64,000 bases of DNA, taken from Clostridium sp. 1001275B_160808_H3 (GTDB lineage Bacteria > Bacillota > Clostridia > Clostridiales > Clostridiaceae). Under the pieces are notes generated by a model. The model was given only the letters and a program-made list of their open reading frames with translations, was not told the origin of the DNA and ran no database searches. Location: contig NZ_JADNAT010000008.1 of the NCBI RefSeq assembly GCF_015550425.1, positions 1 through 64,000 of the forward strand, in the 5' to 3' direction. The translations under genes were made by a program, and so were the position numbers. Shown here piece after piece: positions 6,474-61,445 of this stretch; positions within the stretch are counted from its first letter, which is position 1, and every line of letters starts with the position of its first letter.

Positions 6474-6581
6474 ATAACTATCCCCTTTATTACTTTTCTA
6501 TAGTATTCTTAAAAAGCTTGTCTTCTTTTTTTTTATAATTCAAGTAATAAGGCCAAAGCAAATTACATGGCGATAATCGAA

Positions 6582-6651
6582 TCTTCGTAGTTAGGATATT
6601 TACGGTTTCCTAGTAGAGACACTTGAACCATATCTTCAAGCATATACGAAT
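6582..6651 (-). promoter_or_regulatory. Guanine (purine) riboswitch aptamer upstream of xpt
   Basis: Read on the minus strand, it has P1 (TTCGTA / TACGAA), P2 CTTGAA-GATATGG-TTCAAG with the conserved loop GATATGG, the core GTCTCTACTAGG, P3 with loop ACCGTAAATA, and the 3' core AACTACGAA. The nucleotide equivalent to position 74 is C (AACTA), which specifies guanine rather than adenine. It should switch xpt off when guanine is abundant. The next ~100 nt contain no convincing terminator, only a weak AAAAAG/CTTTTT pairing around 6503-6525, so the expression platform is not resolved. Confidence 0.93.
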
Positions 6652-6856
6652 ACTATATGTATATTTTTTTTATTTATTATAACACTATTGTTGTATTTTG
6701 CGAAGCAATTTATTTAGTGAAAATTTAAGCGTGAAAGAGTGAAATGTTAATGTTGTTTTATTCTGCAAGATTAAAAACAATAAGTGCAAAGCATCTTTTA
6801 TACAAAATCCGTAAGTTTTTTTCCTCAACTCTTTAACTTAGTATTATAAATTATAA

Positions 6857-24591: not shown

Positions 24592-26208
24592 TTATAAATT
24601 ATGCTTTTTCCCTGCATTTCCAATGTTATTGGCATGATCTCCAATTCTCTCTAGATTACTTATTAAATCTAAGAATATAACGCTAGATGCTGCAGAACAT
24701 GATTTTTCATTTAATCTCTTTATATTATTCTCTCTAAACTTTTTCTCTAATTTATCTATTTCATTTTCTATTTGCTCTATTTCCTTTGGAGCTGTTGAAT
24801 TTTTACTATTATAACTTCCAATAGCAATCTCAATAGCCTTAATAGTTCTATCAAATATTAAAGATAATTCCTCTTTAGCATTATCTCCAAGATGAATGTT
24901 CTTGTTCATTTTTTCTAAGGCTAAATCTGCTATATTTTCTGCATGATCGCCAATTCTTTCTATATCATTAATTACGTGATATGTTGAACTAAATAATTTT
25001 ATGTCTTCTTCTGGTAAATCCAGTTGTGAAAGCTCAACTAAGTAATCAGTTATATCCTTTTCTAATGCATTTATTATTTTTTCATTTTTATATACCTTCT
25101 CGGCTGATTCTGTACTATTTTCTGTGAGTGCTTTCATAGCTAACTCTAAATTCTCTTTTGCTTTATTTGCCATTCTTATTGTTTCTTTAAATACTTGTCC
25201 ATTCGCTACGATAGGAGTTTCTAATAAATTTTTGTCTAAATAAATAGCTCCTTCTTTTTCTATTTCAGAATCACCTGGAAGAATCATGTTAACTATTCTA
25301 ACTAAATATGCTGATAACGGTAATAATAACACAGTAACAGTAATATTAAATATAGTATGCGCATTAGCAACTTGTCTTGCTACATTTGTTGGATCAGTTG
25401 ATTCTACCAATCTTATAAATGGATTTATAAATGGTAGGAAAATTAATGCTCCTAATGAGTTAAATAGTAAGTGTATTAATGCAGCTTTTTTTGCAGTTCT
25501 ATTTGCTCCTAATGATGCTAATATTGCTGTTACACAAGTTCCTATATTACAACCTAATATTACAGGAAATGCCAAGTGCATATCTATTGCACCAGTTGTC
25601 GCTAAAGCAACTAGAATACCAGTTGTTGCTGATGAACTTTGCACAACAGCTGTCATACCAAGCCCTGCCATTAGACCTAAAATACTATTGTCTGCAACTA
25701 CAACTACAAAATCTTTAAACCAACTTGCTTCAGCAATTGGTTTCATAGCATCAGCCATTACGCCCATACCCATGAATAAAATCCCAAATCCTAAAGCTAT
25801 ACTTGCTATATCTCTAACTCTTTTCTTCTTTGCTATTAGCATTATTATAGCACCTGCGCCTATGAATAATGGTGCAATTGCATCTAAATCAAAAGATACC
25901 ATTTGAGCTGTAATAGTTGTTCCTATATTAGCTCCCATTATTACTCCTGCCGCTTGAAATAAGTTCATTAATCCAGCATTTACAAAGCTTACAACCATAA
26001 CTGTCGTTGCACTGGAACTTTGTATTATCGCAGTAACTAGTGCCCCTACTAAAACTCCTATGTACTTATTGCTCGTTAACTTTTCTAGTATTGATTTAAG
26101 GCCCTCACCTGCAGCATTTTCTAGACCATCTCCCATAAGCTTCATGCCATATAAAAATAAGCCTAATCCACCTATTAAACCTGTTAAAATAGCGAACTTG
26201 TCCATCAA
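24592..26208 (-). CDS. Na+/phosphate cotransporter with C-terminal PhoU domain
   Basis: 538-aa NptA/YjbB-type transporter. The first ~310 residues form the repeated hydrophobic Na/Pi_cotrans domain with the duplicated QSSSATT motif (~64-70 and ~190-196), which marks the substrate-binding hairpins. The last ~200 residues are two PhoU-like helical modules with the E(x)IGDHAENI and ERIGDHANNI repeats. It would move phosphate across the membrane with Na+, and the PhoU part likely senses or limits flux. Direct repeats of a Pho-type box lie 32 bp upstream. Single gene with terminator. Confidence 0.92.
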   Translation of the reverse strand: MMDKFAILTGLIGGLGLFLYGMKLMGDGLENAAGEGLKSILEKLTSNKYIGVLVGALVTAIIQSSSATTVMVVSFVNAGLMNLFQAAGVIMGANIGTTITAQMVSFDLDAIAPLFIGAGAIIMLIAKKKRVRDIASIALGFGILFMGMGVMADAMKPIAEASWFKDFVVVVADNSILGLMAGLGMTAVVQSSSATTGILVALATTGAIDMHLAFPVILGCNIGTCVTAILASLGANRTAKKAALIHLLFNSLGALIFLPFINPFIRLVESTDPTNVARQVANAHTIFNITVTVLLLPLSAYLVRIVNMILPGDSEIEKEGAIYLDKNLLETPIVANGQVFKETIRMANKAKENLELAMKALTENSTESAEKVYKNEKIINALEKDITDYLVELSQLDLPEEDIKLFSSTYHVINDIERIGDHAENIADLALEKMNKNIHLGDNAKEELSLIFDRTIKAIEIAIGSYNSKNSTAPKEIEQIENEIDKLEKKFRENNIKRLNEKSCSAASSVIFLDLISNLERIGDHANNIGNAGKKHNL

Positions 26209-26239: not shown

Positions 26240-26269
26240 TGTTAACATAAAATTAATATTTTGTTAACA
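26240..26269 (-). promoter_or_regulatory. Candidate PhoP box upstream of the Na/Pi transporter
   Basis: On the minus strand three hexamers, TTAACA (26262-26267), TTAATT (26251-26256) and TTAACA (26240-26245), repeat at exact 11-bp intervals, matching the TTAACA-N5 pattern of Gram-positive PhoP boxes. A candidate promoter TTTACA (26298-26303), 17 bp, TATAGT (26275-26280) lies just upstream, so the box would cover the transcript start; that geometry could mean repression. AT-rich composition makes chance matches possible. Confidence 0.5.
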
Positions 26270-26396
26270 AAATTACTATACAACTAATAGCTAAAATTGT
26301 AAATATTAAATAGCATGTAAAGTTATCCTTATTTTGAAATTTATCTAGTTATTTTAAGAAGAATATTTATATTGTATTCACAGTTTATTTATTTTT

Positions 26397-26433
26397 TTGT
26401 CACACTATTGTCATATTATTAATGTATTATAAT
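26397..26433 (+). promoter_or_regulatory. Candidate Pho-activated promoter of a small RNA
   Basis: TTGTCAC-ACTA-TTGTCAT (26397-26414) is a two-unit repeat with 11-bp period that resembles the Pho box, with a weaker third unit TTAATG at 26419. It ends close to a good -10, TATAAT (26428-26433), and the -35 is weak (CTATTG), as in activator-dependent promoters. It points away from the transporter, toward the terminator at 26486-26530. Confidence 0.5.
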
Positions 26434-26439
26434 AACTGT

Positions 26440-26530
26440 AAAGTAGTTAAAGCATTATTATTTACCCCTAAAACCATCTAATGGTCCCTAGATTAAATTA
26501 TTCCCCAAAGTGATTTAATCTAGGGTTTTT
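26440..26530 (+). ncRNA. Candidate phosphate-linked small RNA with C-rich motifs
   Basis: A ~90-nt transcript is implied by the TATAAT promoter at 26428 and a plus-strand terminator (stem 26486-26498 with 26513-26525, then TTTTT). No plus-strand ORF of useful size lies inside, and both flanking genes run the other way. It carries two C-rich unpaired motifs: TTACCCCTAAAACCA beside a small hairpin (ACCAT/ATGGT, 26473-26485) and TTCCCCAAAG in the terminator loop. Both recur in the 3' UTR of the BFD-like gene (46535-46605). C-rich loops suggest pairing with ribosome binding sites (inference). Confidence 0.55.
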
Positions 26531-26542
26531 CTATAATTAATA

Positions 26543-28171
26543 TTAAAACTTCTCTTCTTTTAGTCTTTTAACTTCTTCAGAAGCCCTTTTTTTATCAAGT
26601 TTTTTAAATAATATTTCTAAATTTAAAATTTCTCCACTCTGCTTTTCTACATAGCTCCATATAGGCTCTTCTAAACTTAAAGATTCTCTTATCTTGTTGC
26701 AAGTATAAGGTATAAAAGGTTCTAATAAGTTGGATAAATTTACAACTGACTGTATGCACTCATAAACCTTATTTTTAATTTCTTTGTTACTCTTTTCTGA
26801 TCTTGTCTTTAATAATTCATTTTCAATATATTTATTCATTTTTTTCACATAAGACATAATATCTAAAATTGCATTTTTAAACTTTCCTTCTTCTATATTA
26901 TCTCCTACATCAAAATATAAATTTAGTATTTCATTTTTGAAATCATTTGATATATTTCCATCAGGTATCTTCGAATCATAATTTTCATTTATATAATCAA
27001 TTGTTTTATTAACAAAATTACTTAATGAACTAACCAAATCTCTATTTACTACATTTATAAAATCTCTCCAAGTAAAATCAGTATCCTTTACTTCTGGAGA
27101 ATTCAATGCTAAGTAATATCTAAATTCATCAACATCATAATTATCAACTATATAGTCACCCCATATAGCCCAATTTTTAACTGACGAAAAATTTTTTCCT
27201 TCTAATTTCATATATTCGCTTGATATAACTCTCAAATTAGGATTTTTTATTCCAATTCCCGCTAATATAGCTGGAAATATTACAGTATGGAAAGGAATAT
27301 TATCTTTACCATGAACAAAGTAAACCCTTGAGTCCTCTCCCTGCCAATATTCTCTCCAATCTTCATTTCTTTCTTCTAAGCACTTCATACTAGCTGTTAA
27401 ATACCCCATTACAGCTTCAATCCAAACGAATATTTTTTTATCATCATATCCTTCTAAAGGAACATCTACTCCCCAATTAAAATCTCTTGTAACCGCTCTA
27501 TCTCTTAATCCTTCATCTAAATATCTCTTTACTATTTTTTGAGCATTTTCTCTCCACCCCTTTTGCCTAATTAAAAGTCTTCTAACGTCATTCTCAAAAC
27601 TTGAAAGTGAGAAAAATAAATGTTTTGTTTCTTTTAATATTGTTTCATTTCCGCAAAGCTTACATCTTCTATCTAAAAGTTCTTCTGAATCTATTACCTT
27701 CAAGCAGTTTTCACATTGATCTCCTGAGGCAATCTCTCCACAATGTGGACACTTTCCTTCTATATACCTGTCTGATAAAAATTCATTGCAATTTTCACAA
27801 TACGTTTGCTCAATTTCCTTTTCATATATATACTCCTTATTATATAATTCAAGGATAAATGCCTTAACCTTTTCTTCGTGATAATCAGAATGAGTCTTCT
27901 CAAACACATCGAAAGAGAATCCTAAACTATCAAAACATCTCTTAAACTCATCATGATATTTAATAGTTGCTTCTAATGGTGTTATCCCCTCTTCCTTTGC
28001 TTTCATAGTTACTGGAGTACCATGACAATCTGTTCCTGATAAAAATACAACTTCATCTCCCATAAGTCTATGATATCTGGCAATTATATCACCTGGAAGT
28101 AATACTGCAATTCTTCCTAAATGTAATGGACCATTTGCATAAGGCCATGCGTTTCCAACAATTATATTCAT
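26543..28171 (-). CDS. Methionyl-tRNA synthetase paralog with altered catalytic motifs
   Basis: The 542-aa protein has the class I MetRS body: Rossmann domain, a connective insert with two zinc knuckles (CENC..CPHC and CENC..CKLC, ~120-180), and an anticodon-binding helical domain. The adenylate-forming motif reads HLGR (~17-20) instead of HIGH/HLGH, and the KMSKS region reads KNFSSVKN. No C-terminal tRBD is present. Start ATG 28171 is chosen because GGGGG precedes it and MNIIVGNAWPYANG is the family N-terminus. It follows the canonical metG on the same strand. It may be a second MetRS, an inhibitor-tolerant form, or a repurposed ligase. Confidence 0.8.
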   Translation of the reverse strand: MNIIVGNAWPYANGPLHLGRIAVLLPGDIIARYHRLMGDEVVFLSGTDCHGTPVTMKAKEEGITPLEATIKYHDEFKRCFDSLGFSFDVFEKTHSDYHEEKVKAFILELYNKEYIYEKEIEQTYCENCNEFLSDRYIEGKCPHCGEIASGDQCENCLKVIDSEELLDRRCKLCGNETILKETKHLFFSLSSFENDVRRLLIRQKGWRENAQKIVKRYLDEGLRDRAVTRDFNWGVDVPLEGYDDKKIFVWIEAVMGYLTASMKCLEERNEDWREYWQGEDSRVYFVHGKDNIPFHTVIFPAILAGIGIKNPNLRVISSEYMKLEGKNFSSVKNWAIWGDYIVDNYDVDEFRYYLALNSPEVKDTDFTWRDFINVVNRDLVSSLSNFVNKTIDYINENYDSKIPDGNISNDFKNEILNLYFDVGDNIEEGKFKNAILDIMSYVKKMNKYIENELLKTRSEKSNKEIKNKVYECIQSVVNLSNLLEPFIPYTCNKIRESLSLEEPIWSYVEKQSGEILNLEILFKKLDKKRASEEVKRLKEEKF

Positions 28172-28225
28172 AAAAACCCCCTTATATTTAATTGACAATT
28201 TATAATGCACAATTGATAATTATGG

Positions 28226-30315: not shown

Positions 30316-30592
30316 CTTTATAATAAAAAAATCTCTATATAGGTATATTAAGACCTATATAGAGACGTATTATACGTGTTACCACTCTAATTCATACTTA
30401 TTTCACAATAAATATCTCAATAGGTGAATTTAATCACCCTGCAATATAACGGTTGCTCCCGTATTTCTCTAACATTTATAGCTCAAGAAATATGCTCCAA
30501 GTCCATCTTCATAAAGATTCTTGTCGCTAGCTTTCACCTTACCTAGCTCTCTTTAAGACATTCTTTCTTTACTACTCTTCTTTTCATCGCAT
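30316..30592 (-). promoter_or_regulatory. T-box leader (Met) of metG
   Basis: On the minus strand, Stem I begins with GAGAGCTAG and GGTGAAAGCTAGC and carries specifier ATG within GAAGATGGACTTGGAG (codon 30504-30506). The T-box sequence AGAGTGGTAACACG is at 30375-30388, and the terminator stem TCTCTATATAGGT/ACCTATATAGAGA with a T run ends at ~30321. Uncharged tRNA-Met should favour antitermination and raise metG. Confidence 0.93.
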
Positions 30593-30653
30593 TTTTTATT
30601 TATTATTATGATATTCTATATTAAAAATACTGTCAATTCTTTTTAATACATCA

Positions 30654-36952: not shown

Positions 36953-37197
36953 TAAAAAGAGCCTTGAGTTTTCACTCAAGGCTCTAAATATACTTTAAAC
37001 TATAATAGAAAAAGTAAAATTCCTCAAGCGATAGCTCACCACAAAGCAAGTTTGTGACAGTGTTACATATATTTTATGCAACCCCAGCCATATGATTTTA
37101 AAGCATCAATCATACGCTTCGGCGATAATTCCTTTCCTATTAAATCACTGTGCTTACCTCATTAATAGTACTCTTAAGTATCGCTCCTCTACCCTTG
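36953..37197 (-). promoter_or_regulatory. Lysine riboswitch (L-box)
   Basis: Read on the minus strand, the aptamer has AGAGGAGCGATACTTAAGAG, GGAAAGGAATTATCGCCGAAG, TATGGCTGGGGTTGCAT, AACACTGTCAC and GGTGAGCTATCGC, matching the five-helix lysine aptamer core. The terminator stem AGAGCCTTGAGT (36958-36969) / (36974-36985) with a T run follows, just ahead of the NhaC-type gene. Lysine binding should terminate transcription of the transporter. Confidence 0.95.
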
Positions 37198-37284
37198 TCG
37201 TTATTCACATTTAATTTATACCTATATTATACAGATATTAACTTGTCAAATCAACTATAACGTAAATATTAATTTCTAATAATC

Positions 37285-45745: not shown

Positions 45746-46015
45746 AACTCCGCCCAATAGGACGAAGATTATTCGCTATACCACCTAAGGTTAGAAGTTC
45801 CCCATAAATAAATATGAAAAACTATTTGAATTCGAGTACAAACATACTCTATCCCTTAACGCAGGATAACGTGAAAAACTTAATCAGTAATTATAAACCT
45901 TTCAGCCTCAAACTCCTAGGTGATTTTCCTTAATATTCTCTATGACTTTTCACCAACCAGTCACTCTCTTAAAGTATCCAACTAAGTACTTTTCCTAATC
46001 ACAGTCTTTAACTAA
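45746..46015 (-). promoter_or_regulatory. T-box leader (Ile) of ileS
   Basis: On the minus strand, Stem I includes GAGAGTGACTGG and TTGGTGAAAAGTCA, with specifier ATC in GAAAATCACCTAGGAG (codon 45922-45924). The T-box TTAGGTGGTATAGCGAA lies near 45774-45790, and a GC-rich terminator CTTCGTCC-TATT-GGGCGGAG with a T run ends at ~45741. The remainder of the gap (45572-45740) is AT-rich and without features. Confidence 0.93.
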
Positions 46016-46228: not shown

Positions 46229-46312
46229 ATAAACATAAAGAATAAACATTAAATTTATTTTTTATCCCCTTTATTTTCCTTAGTCGATTTCTTAATATAG
46301 GAGGAAAACTAA

Positions 46313-46531
46313 ATGGAAAATAACTTAAACGAACAAGTCCTTGATAAGATTACTAAAGTTTGTACTTGCAAGGCAATACCAAGATCCAAAATTAAAGATG
46401 CAATCAAAGCCGGAGCCCACACTGTAGCAGAAGTTTCTAAGGCAACAGGAGCTTGTACAGGTGGATGCAGAGGCTACAGATGTACCCCTACAATCCAAAA
46501 TTTGATTGATAAACATCTGGAAAATAACTAA
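46313..46531 (+). CDS. BFD-like [2Fe-2S]-binding protein
   Basis: 72-aa protein of the bacterioferritin-associated ferredoxin type. Four cysteines bind a [2Fe-2S] cluster: C18 and C20 (VCTCK) and the C-terminal CTGGCRGYRC group, with a helix-turn-helix-like fold between. Stand-alone clostridial copies may shuttle electrons or sense iron; the partner is not known. TAGGAGG precedes ATG. Immediately after the stop, a C-rich 3' UTR and a strong terminator follow. Confidence 0.9.
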   Translation: MENNLNEQVLDKITKVCTCKAIPRSKIKDAIKAGAHTVAEVSKATGACTGGCRGYRCTPTIQNLIDKHLENN

Positions 46532-46610
46532 TATAGTTCCCCCAAACTATATTAGCATATAGATTATATCTCCCCTAAAACCACCTGTTATGGAAACAGG
46601 TGGTTTTTTT
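46528..46610 (+). ncRNA. C-rich 3' UTR hairpin and terminator (possible 3'-derived small RNA)
   Basis: The stem CTAATATAGTT (46528-46538) / (46545-46555) carries an exposed CCCCCA loop. Downstream comes an open TCTCCCCTAAAACCA stretch, then the terminator AACCACCTGTT (46579-46589) / (46595-46605) with a T run. The loop motif (TTCCCCCAAA) and CCCCTAAAACCA recur in the candidate RNA at 26440-26530. The stop codon overlaps the first stem. Whether a separate small RNA is released by processing is unknown. Confidence 0.5.
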
Positions 46611-49328: not shown

Positions 49329-50252
49329 CTATTGTCTTAATTTTGGATCTAGAGCATCTCTTAAGCCATCACCTAAAACGTTAAATGATAATATTAATAA
49401 ACATAAAACTATCGTAGGGAATAGCAATTGATAAGGATAAAATGCCATGGCTTGTTGTCCTGCTGATAATAACGAACCTAAACTAAATACTGGAATATTT
49501 AATCCTAAGCCTAAAAATGACAATATTGTTTCAGAAACTATTACACTTGGAATTGTTGATGCAACATCTAATATTATTAATCCAATTGTGTTAGGTAATA
49601 AATGCTTTAAAATTATTCTCATTGGAGATGCACCTAAAGCTTCCGCTGCTAAAACATATTCACTTTCTCTTAATTGAAGAATTTGTCCCCGTATCATTCT
49701 TGCTGTACCAGTCCATGCTGTTAAACACAAAGCTAACATTAACTGAAAATATCCATTTCCTAAAACAACTAAAATCAGTAAGGTAATTATTAAGTATGGA
49801 ATACTATTTAATACTTCAACTATTCTCATCATTATTTCATCTACTATTCCACCTAAATATGCAGCTATGCCTCCATATAAACATCCAACTACTATATCTA
49901 TTACAGTAGCAATCAATGCTACGCTTATTGATATTCTTGTTCCTATCCACACTCTTGTAAATAAATCTCTTCCCATAGCATCTGTTCCCCACCAGAACTC
50001 ACTACTAGGAGATAAATTCTTTTTTTCTGTTACAACAGTTTGATAATCCATATTTCTTATTATTGGAGCAAAAATTGCCATTAGCACAATAGCAACTAAT
50101 ACAAATAAGGCACCCATAGCAACTGGATTCTTTTTAAGCCTTCTCCAAGCATCTTGCCAATAACTAATATTGGGCCTTACAACTAAATCGCCATCTAATG
50201 TAGATGAGTCTACAAGTTCAAATCTTTTATCTTTTACCTCTAATTTATTCAT
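49329..50252 (-). CDS. oppC: Oligopeptide ABC transporter permease OppC
   Basis: 307-aa permease with six membrane helices. The N-terminal region includes NPVAMGALFVLVAIVLMAIF, and the cytoplasmic EAA-type loop AAEALGASPMRIILKHLLPN marks contact with the ATPases. It follows oppB by 16 bp and precedes oppD by 14 bp. Partner of OppB in the channel. Confidence 0.95.
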   Translation of the reverse strand: MNKLEVKDKRFELVDSSTLDGDLVVRPNISYWQDAWRRLKKNPVAMGALFVLVAIVLMAIFAPIIRNMDYQTVVTEKKNLSPSSEFWWGTDAMGRDLFTRVWIGTRISISVALIATVIDIVVGCLYGGIAAYLGGIVDEIMMRIVEVLNSIPYLIITLLILVVLGNGYFQLMLALCLTAWTGTARMIRGQILQLRESEYVLAAEALGASPMRIILKHLLPNTIGLIILDVASTIPSVIVSETILSFLGLGLNIPVFSLGSLLSAGQQAMAFYPYQLLFPTIVLCLLILSFNVLGDGLRDALDPKLRQ

Positions 50253-60386: not shown

Positions 60387-61445
60387 ATGAAACGTGAATT
60401 TTCTAAAATTTTTCAAATAGCAGTTGTTTTTATTGGAACAATTGTTGGCGCTGGGTTAGCTTCTGGACAAGAAATCAAAGAATTTTTCACATCATATGGA
60501 GTATCAAGCTTTATAGGAATTATAGCTTGTGGTATATTTTATATAATTATGGGTTCTATAGTCTCTAAAATTAGTATTAAATATAAGTTAAACTCTTATG
60601 GTGATGTAATTAAGGTTGTAAGTCCAAATTTACTCGGCAAAATTACTGGTGTAATTACTACACTATACTTAATTTCTAGTGCGTCAATAATATTAGCTGG
60701 TAGTGGTGCATTAATAAATCAATTTTTTAATATTCCTAAGATAATTGGATCTTTAATAATGGTTGCTTTAGCAGTTTTCTTTCTTTTAAGAGATACAGAT
60801 GGTTTAATTGAAGTTAATTCATTTATTGTTCCAACTCTTGTTATTACTATAACAACAATAACCATACTATATTTTATGTTTTGTAAAGATATGATTTCTA
60901 TAGAATTTTTAACTAAATTTGAACCTAAAAAGACTGGTATCACATTATCTACAATACTATATGCTGGATATAATACTCTTTGTTGTCTTGGTGTATTAGT
61001 GCCTCTTAGTAATCAAATAAAAAAACCTAAAACTATGTTTTATGGAATTACACTTGGTGCAATAGGTTTAGCTTGTTTAAGTTTTGCTATAAACTTTTTG
61101 TTAATGATAAACCAACCATATATACATCAATATGAAATACCTTTATTATTTGTAGCACAACGCTTTGGCAATGTAATTCAAGCATTATTATTAGTTGTAA
61201 TTTGGTTAGAAATGTTTTCCACTGAGGTTTCTGATGTTTACTCCATAAGTAAAACATTAGATAATAGCTTTAATATAGACTTTAAGAAAGCAATCTTCAT
61301 AGTTCTAATTATTGCTCTTCCTATATCAAGAATAGGATTTTCAAAATTAATTGGATCATTATATCCTCTTTTTGGTATGCTTAGCTTGGTATTTATAGCA
61401 CAAACAATTTATTTTTATTTTAAACATAAAAAAGAATTAAATTAA
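60387..61445 (+). CDS. YkvI-family membrane transporter
   Basis: 352-aa polytopic protein with about ten membrane segments, opening FQIAVVFIGTIVGAGLASGQEIKEFF, the LeuT-like first helix typical of YkvI proteins. The fold belongs to the amino acid/polyamine transporter superfamily. The substrate is unknown. GGGGGGATT precedes ATG. It is convergent with the H-NOX chemoreceptor gene. Confidence 0.85.
   Translation: MKREFSKIFQIAVVFIGTIVGAGLASGQEIKEFFTSYGVSSFIGIIACGIFYIIMGSIVSKISIKYKLNSYGDVIKVVSPNLLGKITGVITTLYLISSASIILAGSGALINQFFNIPKIIGSLIMVALAVFFLLRDTDGLIEVNSFIVPTLVITITTITILYFMFCKDMISIEFLTKFEPKKTGITLSTILYAGYNTLCCLGVLVPLSNQIKKPKTMFYGITLGAIGLACLSFAINFLLMINQPYIHQYEIPLLFVAQRFGNVIQALLLVVIWLEMFSTEVSDVYSISKTLDNSFNIDFKKAIFIVLIIALPISRIGFSKLIGSLYPLFGMLSLVFIAQTIYFYFKHKKELN

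Follow-up and report, generated by a model that had tools for sequence, protein, structure and literature searches.

The csRNAs of streptococci are sibling small RNAs, many of them near 90 nt, that belong to the CiaR regulon together with htrA, the gene of a cell-surface protease for protein repair (PMC3091779, PMC12826053). Their promoters carry the direct repeat TTTAAG-N5-TTTAAG, also written NTTAAG-N5-TTTAAG, located 10 nt from the -10 region, a spacing by which csRNAs were sought (PMC3091779), and the RNAs contain stretches complementary to translation starts (PMC3091779, PMC12826053, PMC8186281). In other Firmicutes, CssRS and CiaRH drive htrA (PMC12826053), and in Bacillus subtilis CssRS drives htrA/htrB under secretion stress, with small RNA siblings unmentioned in the accessible part of that article (PMC12826053). 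The LhrC1-5 RNAs of Listeria are also multi-copy and placed under envelope-stress two-component control (LisRK), and their C-rich motifs, found in an unpaired stretch as well as in the loop of the terminator, bind mRNA (PMC4132741); the accessible part of this article presents no binding consensus as known for LisR. In FsrA, RsaE and other UCCC RNAs of low-GC Gram-positive bacteria, an exposed C-rich motif is thought to block the Shine-Dalgarno sequence (PMC4132741).

The window analysed here, i.e. the whole stretch of 64,000 nucleotides from a close relative of Clostridium tertium, contains at positions 26437-26530 a small RNA gene, as judged from sequence features that predict its transcription. 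Clostridia are medically and industrially important, and to our knowledge a regulon has been assigned to only a few of their small RNAs. A 2011 study reportedly predicted small RNAs across Clostridium. The open-licence literature yielded no paper describing the present small RNA family, and htrA and metG are absent from the accessible main text of the C. acetobutylicum small RNome paper (PMC3879012). The locus comprises the following features:

26395-26419, plus strand: response-regulator box, direct repeat TGTCAC-N5-TGTCAT with half-sites at 26398-26403 and 26409-26414 (position weight matrix, PWM, score 27.7)
26425-26433, plus strand: -10 region, TATTAT at 26425-26430 (10 nt past the box) overlapping TATAAT at 26428-26433
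26437-26530, plus strand: small RNA of ~93 nt
26437-26464, plus strand: near-invariant 5' segment TGTAAAGTAGTTAAAGCATTATTATTTA, with a possible weak hairpin GUAAA/UUUAC
26465-26473, plus strand: C-rich linker CCCCTAAAA, first exposed C-run, predicted to be single-stranded
26474-26484, plus strand: small hairpin CCATCTAATGG
26486-26530, plus strand: intrinsic terminator, 17-pair stem at 26486-26525, loop CCCCAA and U-tract TTTTT
26503-26508, plus strand: terminator loop CCCCAA, second exposed C-run
26543-28210, minus strand: metG (methionyl-tRNA ligase), lying convergent to the RNA and serving as conserved anchor of the core copy
24592-26208, minus strand: nptA (Na/Pi cotransporter), neighbour outside the system

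On balance, we consider it probable that this RNA is the core, metG-linked member of a sibling set, placed under a CssR/CiaR-type switch shared with htrA, responding to envelope stress and blocking Shine-Dalgarno sites through its C-runs.

The start of the RNA was placed from the -10 region and the onset of conservation, and its end from the terminator. Along the plus strand from 26395 to 26530, the box TTTTGTCACACTATTGTCATATTAT is followed by the -10 sequence TATTATAAT, then by TGTAAAGTAGTTAAAGCATTATTATTTACCCCTAAAACCATCTAATGG and the terminator. A previous sequence-only reading had described here a TATAAT promoter with an 11-bp-periodic TTGTCA repeat at 26397, no plus-strand gene and a strong plus-strand terminator, and all three were recovered: TTGTCA stands at 26397 and 26408, i.e. 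with an 11-bp period (the box being better described as TTTTGWCAYNNNNYTGWCAYA), no plausible plus-strand gene exists, metG and nptA both lying on the minus strand, and the 17-pair stem with its CCCCAA loop and TTTTT is present. The 89 nt from 26443 to 26531 fold with an energy of -23.7 kcal/mol (z = -5.0), a value equalled by none of 200 shuffles; this strong fold stems mostly from the terminator, and the fold of the 5' segment barely beats shuffles (mean z of -0.51). Comparison with the Rfam 15 covariance models gave no match to the small RNA at the gathering score, which leaves it without kinship to a known terminator-only family, and relaxing the threshold returned seven unrelated families far under that score. 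A mobile-element origin was considered and rejected, plasmid and phage collections being without match to 26390-26540.

A search model (R1) composed of the box and the 5' segment, with the linker contained in it, was built from 12 sequences. It matched 65 of the 68 genomes of the genus (E<=0.01), 92 of the 206 genomes of the taxonomic family (E<=0.001), leaving 114 without match at this threshold, and 83 of the 225 genomes of the order (E<=1e-5). Ten weak matches among the 92 family-level genomes (best E from 2.9e-5 to 8.4e-4) may be due to chance. One 6.5-Mb genome (G035) holds 23 matches, all with E<=1.2e-4, spread over one contig with close pairs among them; a box PWM score of at least 9 was obtained for 20 of the 23, and 20 carry a CCC linker. 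Other large genomes hold 14 matches each (G031 and G061) or 12 each (G016 and G017). Loci were fetched for 115 matches or clusters, mainly the best match of each genome, and a second tool recovered 120 matches (117 distinct) in 112 of these loci, the three others giving none. A terminator was called in 111 of the 117 distinct copies, and a -10-like hexamer lies 10 nt past the box in 78 of 115 copies. As for csRNAs, the RNA is stand-alone and ends in an intrinsic terminator, the intergenic position applying to the window copy.

In other lineages, variant copies, some of them in tandem (G197, G200 and G202), have a changed 5' segment but retain the box, together with an ACCCC linker and terminators with a C-loop. 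The earlier proposal of a stand-alone C-rich small RNA with two exposed C-runs, itself a member of a family, is supported, and from its sequence this RNA is one member of a large, apparently undescribed clostridial C-rich family. Elsewhere in the Clostridiaceae, we observed a tandem sub-family with the 5' segment GTAACGTAGCTAAAACACTAATTTAATTTTACCCC (L175, L176 and L178). At further loci (L312, L335 and L260), the box is followed by a divergent short RNA with C-runs kept in the linker or the terminator loop, which makes the family probably larger than R1 detects. Among 42 loci compared, a recurrent cluster of seven ORFs, the first of which appears by eye to be GH25-lysozyme-like, lies beside expanded copies (L144, L148, L150, L154, L204, L217 and L220).

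A CCC-type linker was found in 113 of the 117 distinct copies, a count obtained partly by selection because the search model contains the linker. The terminator loop lies outside the model; of the 111 copies with a called terminator, 90 have CCC in it, compared with 12 of the 1022 hairpin-plus-T sites taken from 30 control loci (an earlier, rougher tally, whose control included RNA-holding loci, stood at 47/91 against 2/163); some of the 21 loops without CCC look like wrong hairpins chosen by the script. The CCATCTAATGG hairpin is variable or missing in distant copies. The C-runs look selected at sequence level, and since the LhrC motifs located at the same two places bind mRNA, a block of translation at G-rich Shine-Dalgarno sites is, by analogy, a plausible role for them and the best mechanism at hand.

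The same features could also serve protein binding, the C-runs and the near-invariant 5' segment titrating an RNA-binding protein in the way of CsrB. A 28-nt block of the small RNA contains 27 invariant columns in 12 sequences, more than a pairing seed would explain, as such a seed usually needs less than 28 nt, and many siblings would raise dosage. However, each RNA offers only two C-runs, and their location in a linker and a loop fits the C-rich, Shine-Dalgarno-pairing RNAs of low-GC Gram-positive bacteria (PMC4132741), which makes titration unlikely in our view and favours the translational block.

For this block, the search for targets provided at most leads. Read as its reverse complement, the 5' segment gives AGGGG-9 nt-AUG, which resembles a ribosome-binding site; complementary-site pattern searches gave no excess over the reversed-pattern control in 10 genomes, nor over control in 4 genomes, so this resemblance is not relied on. 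Among 153 target-pattern matches tallied, 90 loci were read (42/42 in G005, 34/44 in G007, 7/33 in G003 and 7/34 in G001), yielding 18 sites with a start codon and an open frame, four of which are inside a longer frame. Membrane proteins recognised by eye among these 18 sites, namely BrnQ, a SpoVB-like flippase (two genomes), an ABC permease (two genomes) and a lipoprotein, are putative targets and a lead only, their share being without control; brnQ is also a csRNA target in S. pneumoniae (PMC8186281). The duplex energies of six candidate targets (-17.5 to -29.1) show no separation from a generic AGGAGG site (-17.9). At one locus of C. nigeriense (L414, genome G005), the Shine-Dalgarno sequence UUUAGGGGUGA of a gene that by eye encodes an OmpR-type response regulator is complementary to the linker, and this gene could be a feedback target.

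The 25-bp PWM of the box was built from 79 of the 120 small RNA matches, the 41 others failing the strict expression or the full 25-bp slice, and the sole other site above 9 bits in the window is one of 12.2 at 49512 on the minus strand. When 12 genomes were scanned with a box pattern, htrA-like genes came up in 4 of them, and a protein search found htrA in 19 of 19 genomes. Trained on small RNA promoters only, the PWM gave a score between 9.2 and 24.5 upstream of htrA in 15 of these 19 genomes; leaving out the three (G010, G011 and G013) whose box sites had originally revealed htrA, the count is 12 of 16. Over whole loci, the background amounted to four scores of at least 9 in 1,543,298 positions, none reaching 15, i.e. 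~0.015 expected in 19 x 300 nt. In the four genomes missed, the upstream region as seen by eye displays TGTCATATAATTGTAACA with a degenerate second half-site (two genomes), TTGTCATTAAATTGTCACA with both half-sites visible (one genome), or a transposase-like insertion between htrA and a box ~2 kb upstream (one genome). The htrA promoter of C. tertium (L295) carries four repeats in a row. No box was found upstream of a second htrA-like copy in G010, and the HtrA-like protein of G011 contains Pfam Trypsin_2 and PDZ domains and remains below the cut-offs of the NCBIfam HtrA models.

Across 8 genomes, the strict box pattern identified 2-9 sites each (2 in G006 and 3-9 in the other seven), the reversed control yielding 0-2. 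The sites common to the C. tertium group belong to the small RNA, htrA and a conserved lipoprotein gene that encodes a FIGEGEW motif and has no Pfam or NCBIfam match. The box of this last gene, read at six loci from six genomes (L327, L317, L313, L329, L331 and L333), is reverse-oriented and located upstream (~1501-1518), a seventh site being G004:C154, and the sequence makes the gene a possible third member of the regulon. Two sites of G011 precede the divergent C-run RNAs of L312 and L335. The other box sites, palindromes beside WYL/YafY-like regulators or inside a primosome gene (by eye), look unrelated. None of the box-site loci read stands before a two-component operon, and the regulator gene was not found among them. 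At sequence level, the small RNA shares a regulon with htrA as csRNAs do, and the recurrence of the box before htrA points to a CssR/CiaR-type response regulator of the OmpR family, likely an activator. Together, the box, its 10-nt spacing and its co-occurrence with htrA match the design of the CiaR csRNAs, which leads us to propose that the regulator resembles CssR/CiaR and that its signal is envelope or secretion stress.

The sequence-only reading had instead tied the RNA to phosphate. A PhoP-controlled small RNA of phosphate starvation would be in line with the E. coli Pho box, which resembles an 11-bp TGTCA repeat, and with nptA adjoining the RNA in the C. tertium group. The pstS promoters (8 loci of 7 genomes) speak against it, as they hold no box above 8 bits and display TTAACA-type repeats in its place, as does the presence of the same box before htrA; furthermore, nptA adjoins the RNA in only 10 of the 110 copy-bearing loci, against 69 for metG. 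Phosphate control is very unlikely on these grounds, and the link was abandoned in favour of the stress regulator shared with htrA. Upstream of nptA, 11-bp-periodic TTAACA/TTAATA/TTAACA repeats at 26242-26269 resemble those of pstS, and by sequence would be a likelier PhoP box than the repeat at 26397.

The presence of metG within the fetched flanks of 69 loci is a figure that reflects sampling, because mainly the best match per genome was fetched; set beside the ten loci with nptA, it designates the window copy as the core copy and nptA as a local neighbour. In metG-holding loci, every one of the 73 copies of the RNA is oriented convergently to metG, an arrangement that a cis-acting antisense RNA or a 3'-end element of metG would produce. 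Nevertheless, the distance to metG ranges from 4 to 692 nt, and 41 of the 110 loci have no metG match within the fetched flanks, those read retaining box, linker and terminator. A cis role on metG is likewise very unlikely, and the RNA is better read as a sibling acting on Shine-Dalgarno sites.

Conservation among relatives was examined with the neighbour NptA as query, the best 80 of 135 loci being taken; the closest among them was that of C. tertium DSM 2485 (96% protein identity), and the small RNA was found at E<=0.01 in seven (L001-L007) of these best 80 of 135. In the eight sequences formed by the window and these seven, which represent one species group, 61 of 62 positions are identical from 26437 to 26498. 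Identity falls to 25 of 42 positions across the box and promoter and to 10 of 15 upstream; immediately downstream, it is 1 of 10. Within the terminator stem, L007 shows a compensatory change from A-U to G-C that keeps the pairing (by eye). BLAST against 14 genomes indicated that distant species retain the box and the first ~30 nt, with the middle and the terminator stem rebuilt; these include C. celatum, C. gasigenes, C. jeddahtimonense (three copies), C. neonatale and C. weizhouense, while C. ihumii gave no match and C. cadaveris a chance-level one only (E 0.08). Absence of the RNA outside this strain had been named beforehand as a possible refutation, and the opposite was found, in these close relatives as in the genus-wide matches of R1. 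That ordinary terminator or promoter debris was conserved by chance among close relatives is scarcely credible, as the flanks diverge around a fixed RNA even within one species group, and distant genomes and siblings retain its plan.

The 3' UTR of a BFD gene (46528-46610, plus strand) had been presented as a relative of this RNA on the basis of common motifs. These are present: the 12-mer CCCCTAAAACCA has exactly two occurrences in the window, at 26465 and 46572 (0.00 expected in shuffles), and the BFD 3' UTR forms a hairpin whose loop contains CCCCC, the same 12-mer opening the terminator. Kinship was not borne out. Over the window, R1 found only the small RNA element, along with a chance-level match at 61165 (E 0.19), and the BFD region has neither a good PWM site nearby nor the 5' segment in its 3' UTR, so that the 12-mer common to both can be no more than a functional parallel. 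The BFD gene and its 3' end were matched in 8 of 12 genomes, G010 matching in the coding part only and three genomes being without match. In the window and the eight relatives, the hairpin loop contains CCCC and a UCCCCU linker is present, with compensatory changes in the hairpin of C. gasigenes (by eye), making this separately conserved element a candidate 3'-UTR small RNA in its own right. The proposed link of the BFD RNA to iron found no support, as the best Fur match reaches 10/13 positions of the 13-mer, a value attained by 14 of 126 background stretches. The BFD 5' UTR (46250-46312, plus strand) is itself strongly conserved (TTTATTTTTTATCCCCTTTATTTTCC...AGGAGGAAAA), and contains UUUUCCU, which might base-pair with the AGGAAAA of the gene's Shine-Dalgarno sequence; a further conserved block, TAATTTTTATYAATTAGTATTGAC, overlaps the BFD -35. 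Rfam also identified the following elements in the window:

37024-37199, minus strand: lysine riboswitch
30358-30596 and 45755-46011, minus strand: two T-box leaders
6568-6669, minus strand: purine riboswitch

In the preferred reading, secretion or envelope stress would activate a CssR/CiaR-type member of the OmpR family of response regulators; this regulator would bind the 11-bp direct repeat that sits shortly before the -10 region and switch the small RNA on, the same regulator also driving htrA. Either C-run would then start pairing with a G-rich Shine-Dalgarno sequence (AGGGG/GGGGG type), the A/U-rich flanks lengthening the RNA-mRNA duplex, and translation of the target mRNA would be blocked. 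The small RNA thus probably shuts off translation of selected mRNAs under envelope stress. Likely targets would be membrane or secreted proteins, the envelope load dropping while HtrA clears the damage. More tentatively, and with a confidence just short of even, the Clostridiaceae could possess an envelope-stress regulon of their own, in which one response regulator, htrA and greatly expanded C-rich siblings form a dosage-tuned translation brake on envelope proteins.

The closest analogues appear to be the CiaR-csRNA-HtrA regulon of streptococci and the LhrC RNAs of Listeria. As far as the accessible descriptions go, the clostridial RNAs and the csRNAs have in common siblings of ~90 nt, a hexamer-N5-hexamer box 10 nt before the -10 region and an htrA regulon. 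The clostridial box, TGWCAY-N5-TGWCAY, differs from the CiaR box in sequence while agreeing in geometry, and this box, the description of the RNA, the copy number (23 model matches in one genome against 2-6 csRNAs) and the absence of an Rfam match set it apart from the csRNAs. LhrC is likewise multi-copy, with C-runs in both an unpaired stretch and the loop of the terminator, but its accessible description includes a third UCCC site in another loop, whereas the window copy has no C-run in the loops of its 5' segment or of the CCATCTAATGG hairpin; LhrC also belongs to a different genus, and description and the lack of an Rfam match again separate the two. CssRS of B. subtilis offers a similar two-component control of htrA. 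FsrA, RsaE and other UCCC RNAs have promoters and signals of other kinds. As these RNAs are described in the accessible text, the clostridial RNA resembles FsrA and RsaE by its exposed C-rich motif and differs by having no Rfam match.

Two-component-driven sibling C-rich RNAs were already known; for the clostridial family, with its particular box and copy number, neither Rfam nor the open-licence literature searched gave a precedent. The wiring of a response regulator, htrA and sibling RNAs with the potential to pair with translation starts, known in streptococci, now appears in clostridia with different sequences, which suggests a convergent or deeply shared logic. A genome with ~20 siblings makes the reasons for the multiplication of small RNA genes in bacteria directly testable in tractable solventogenic strains. 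Reviewed sibling sets comprise 2-6 csRNAs and 4-5 Qrr in the accessible text (PMC4211561), and LhrC counts five; if our reading is true, the 23 model matches of a single clostridial genome exceed all of these and may represent the largest sibling set known.
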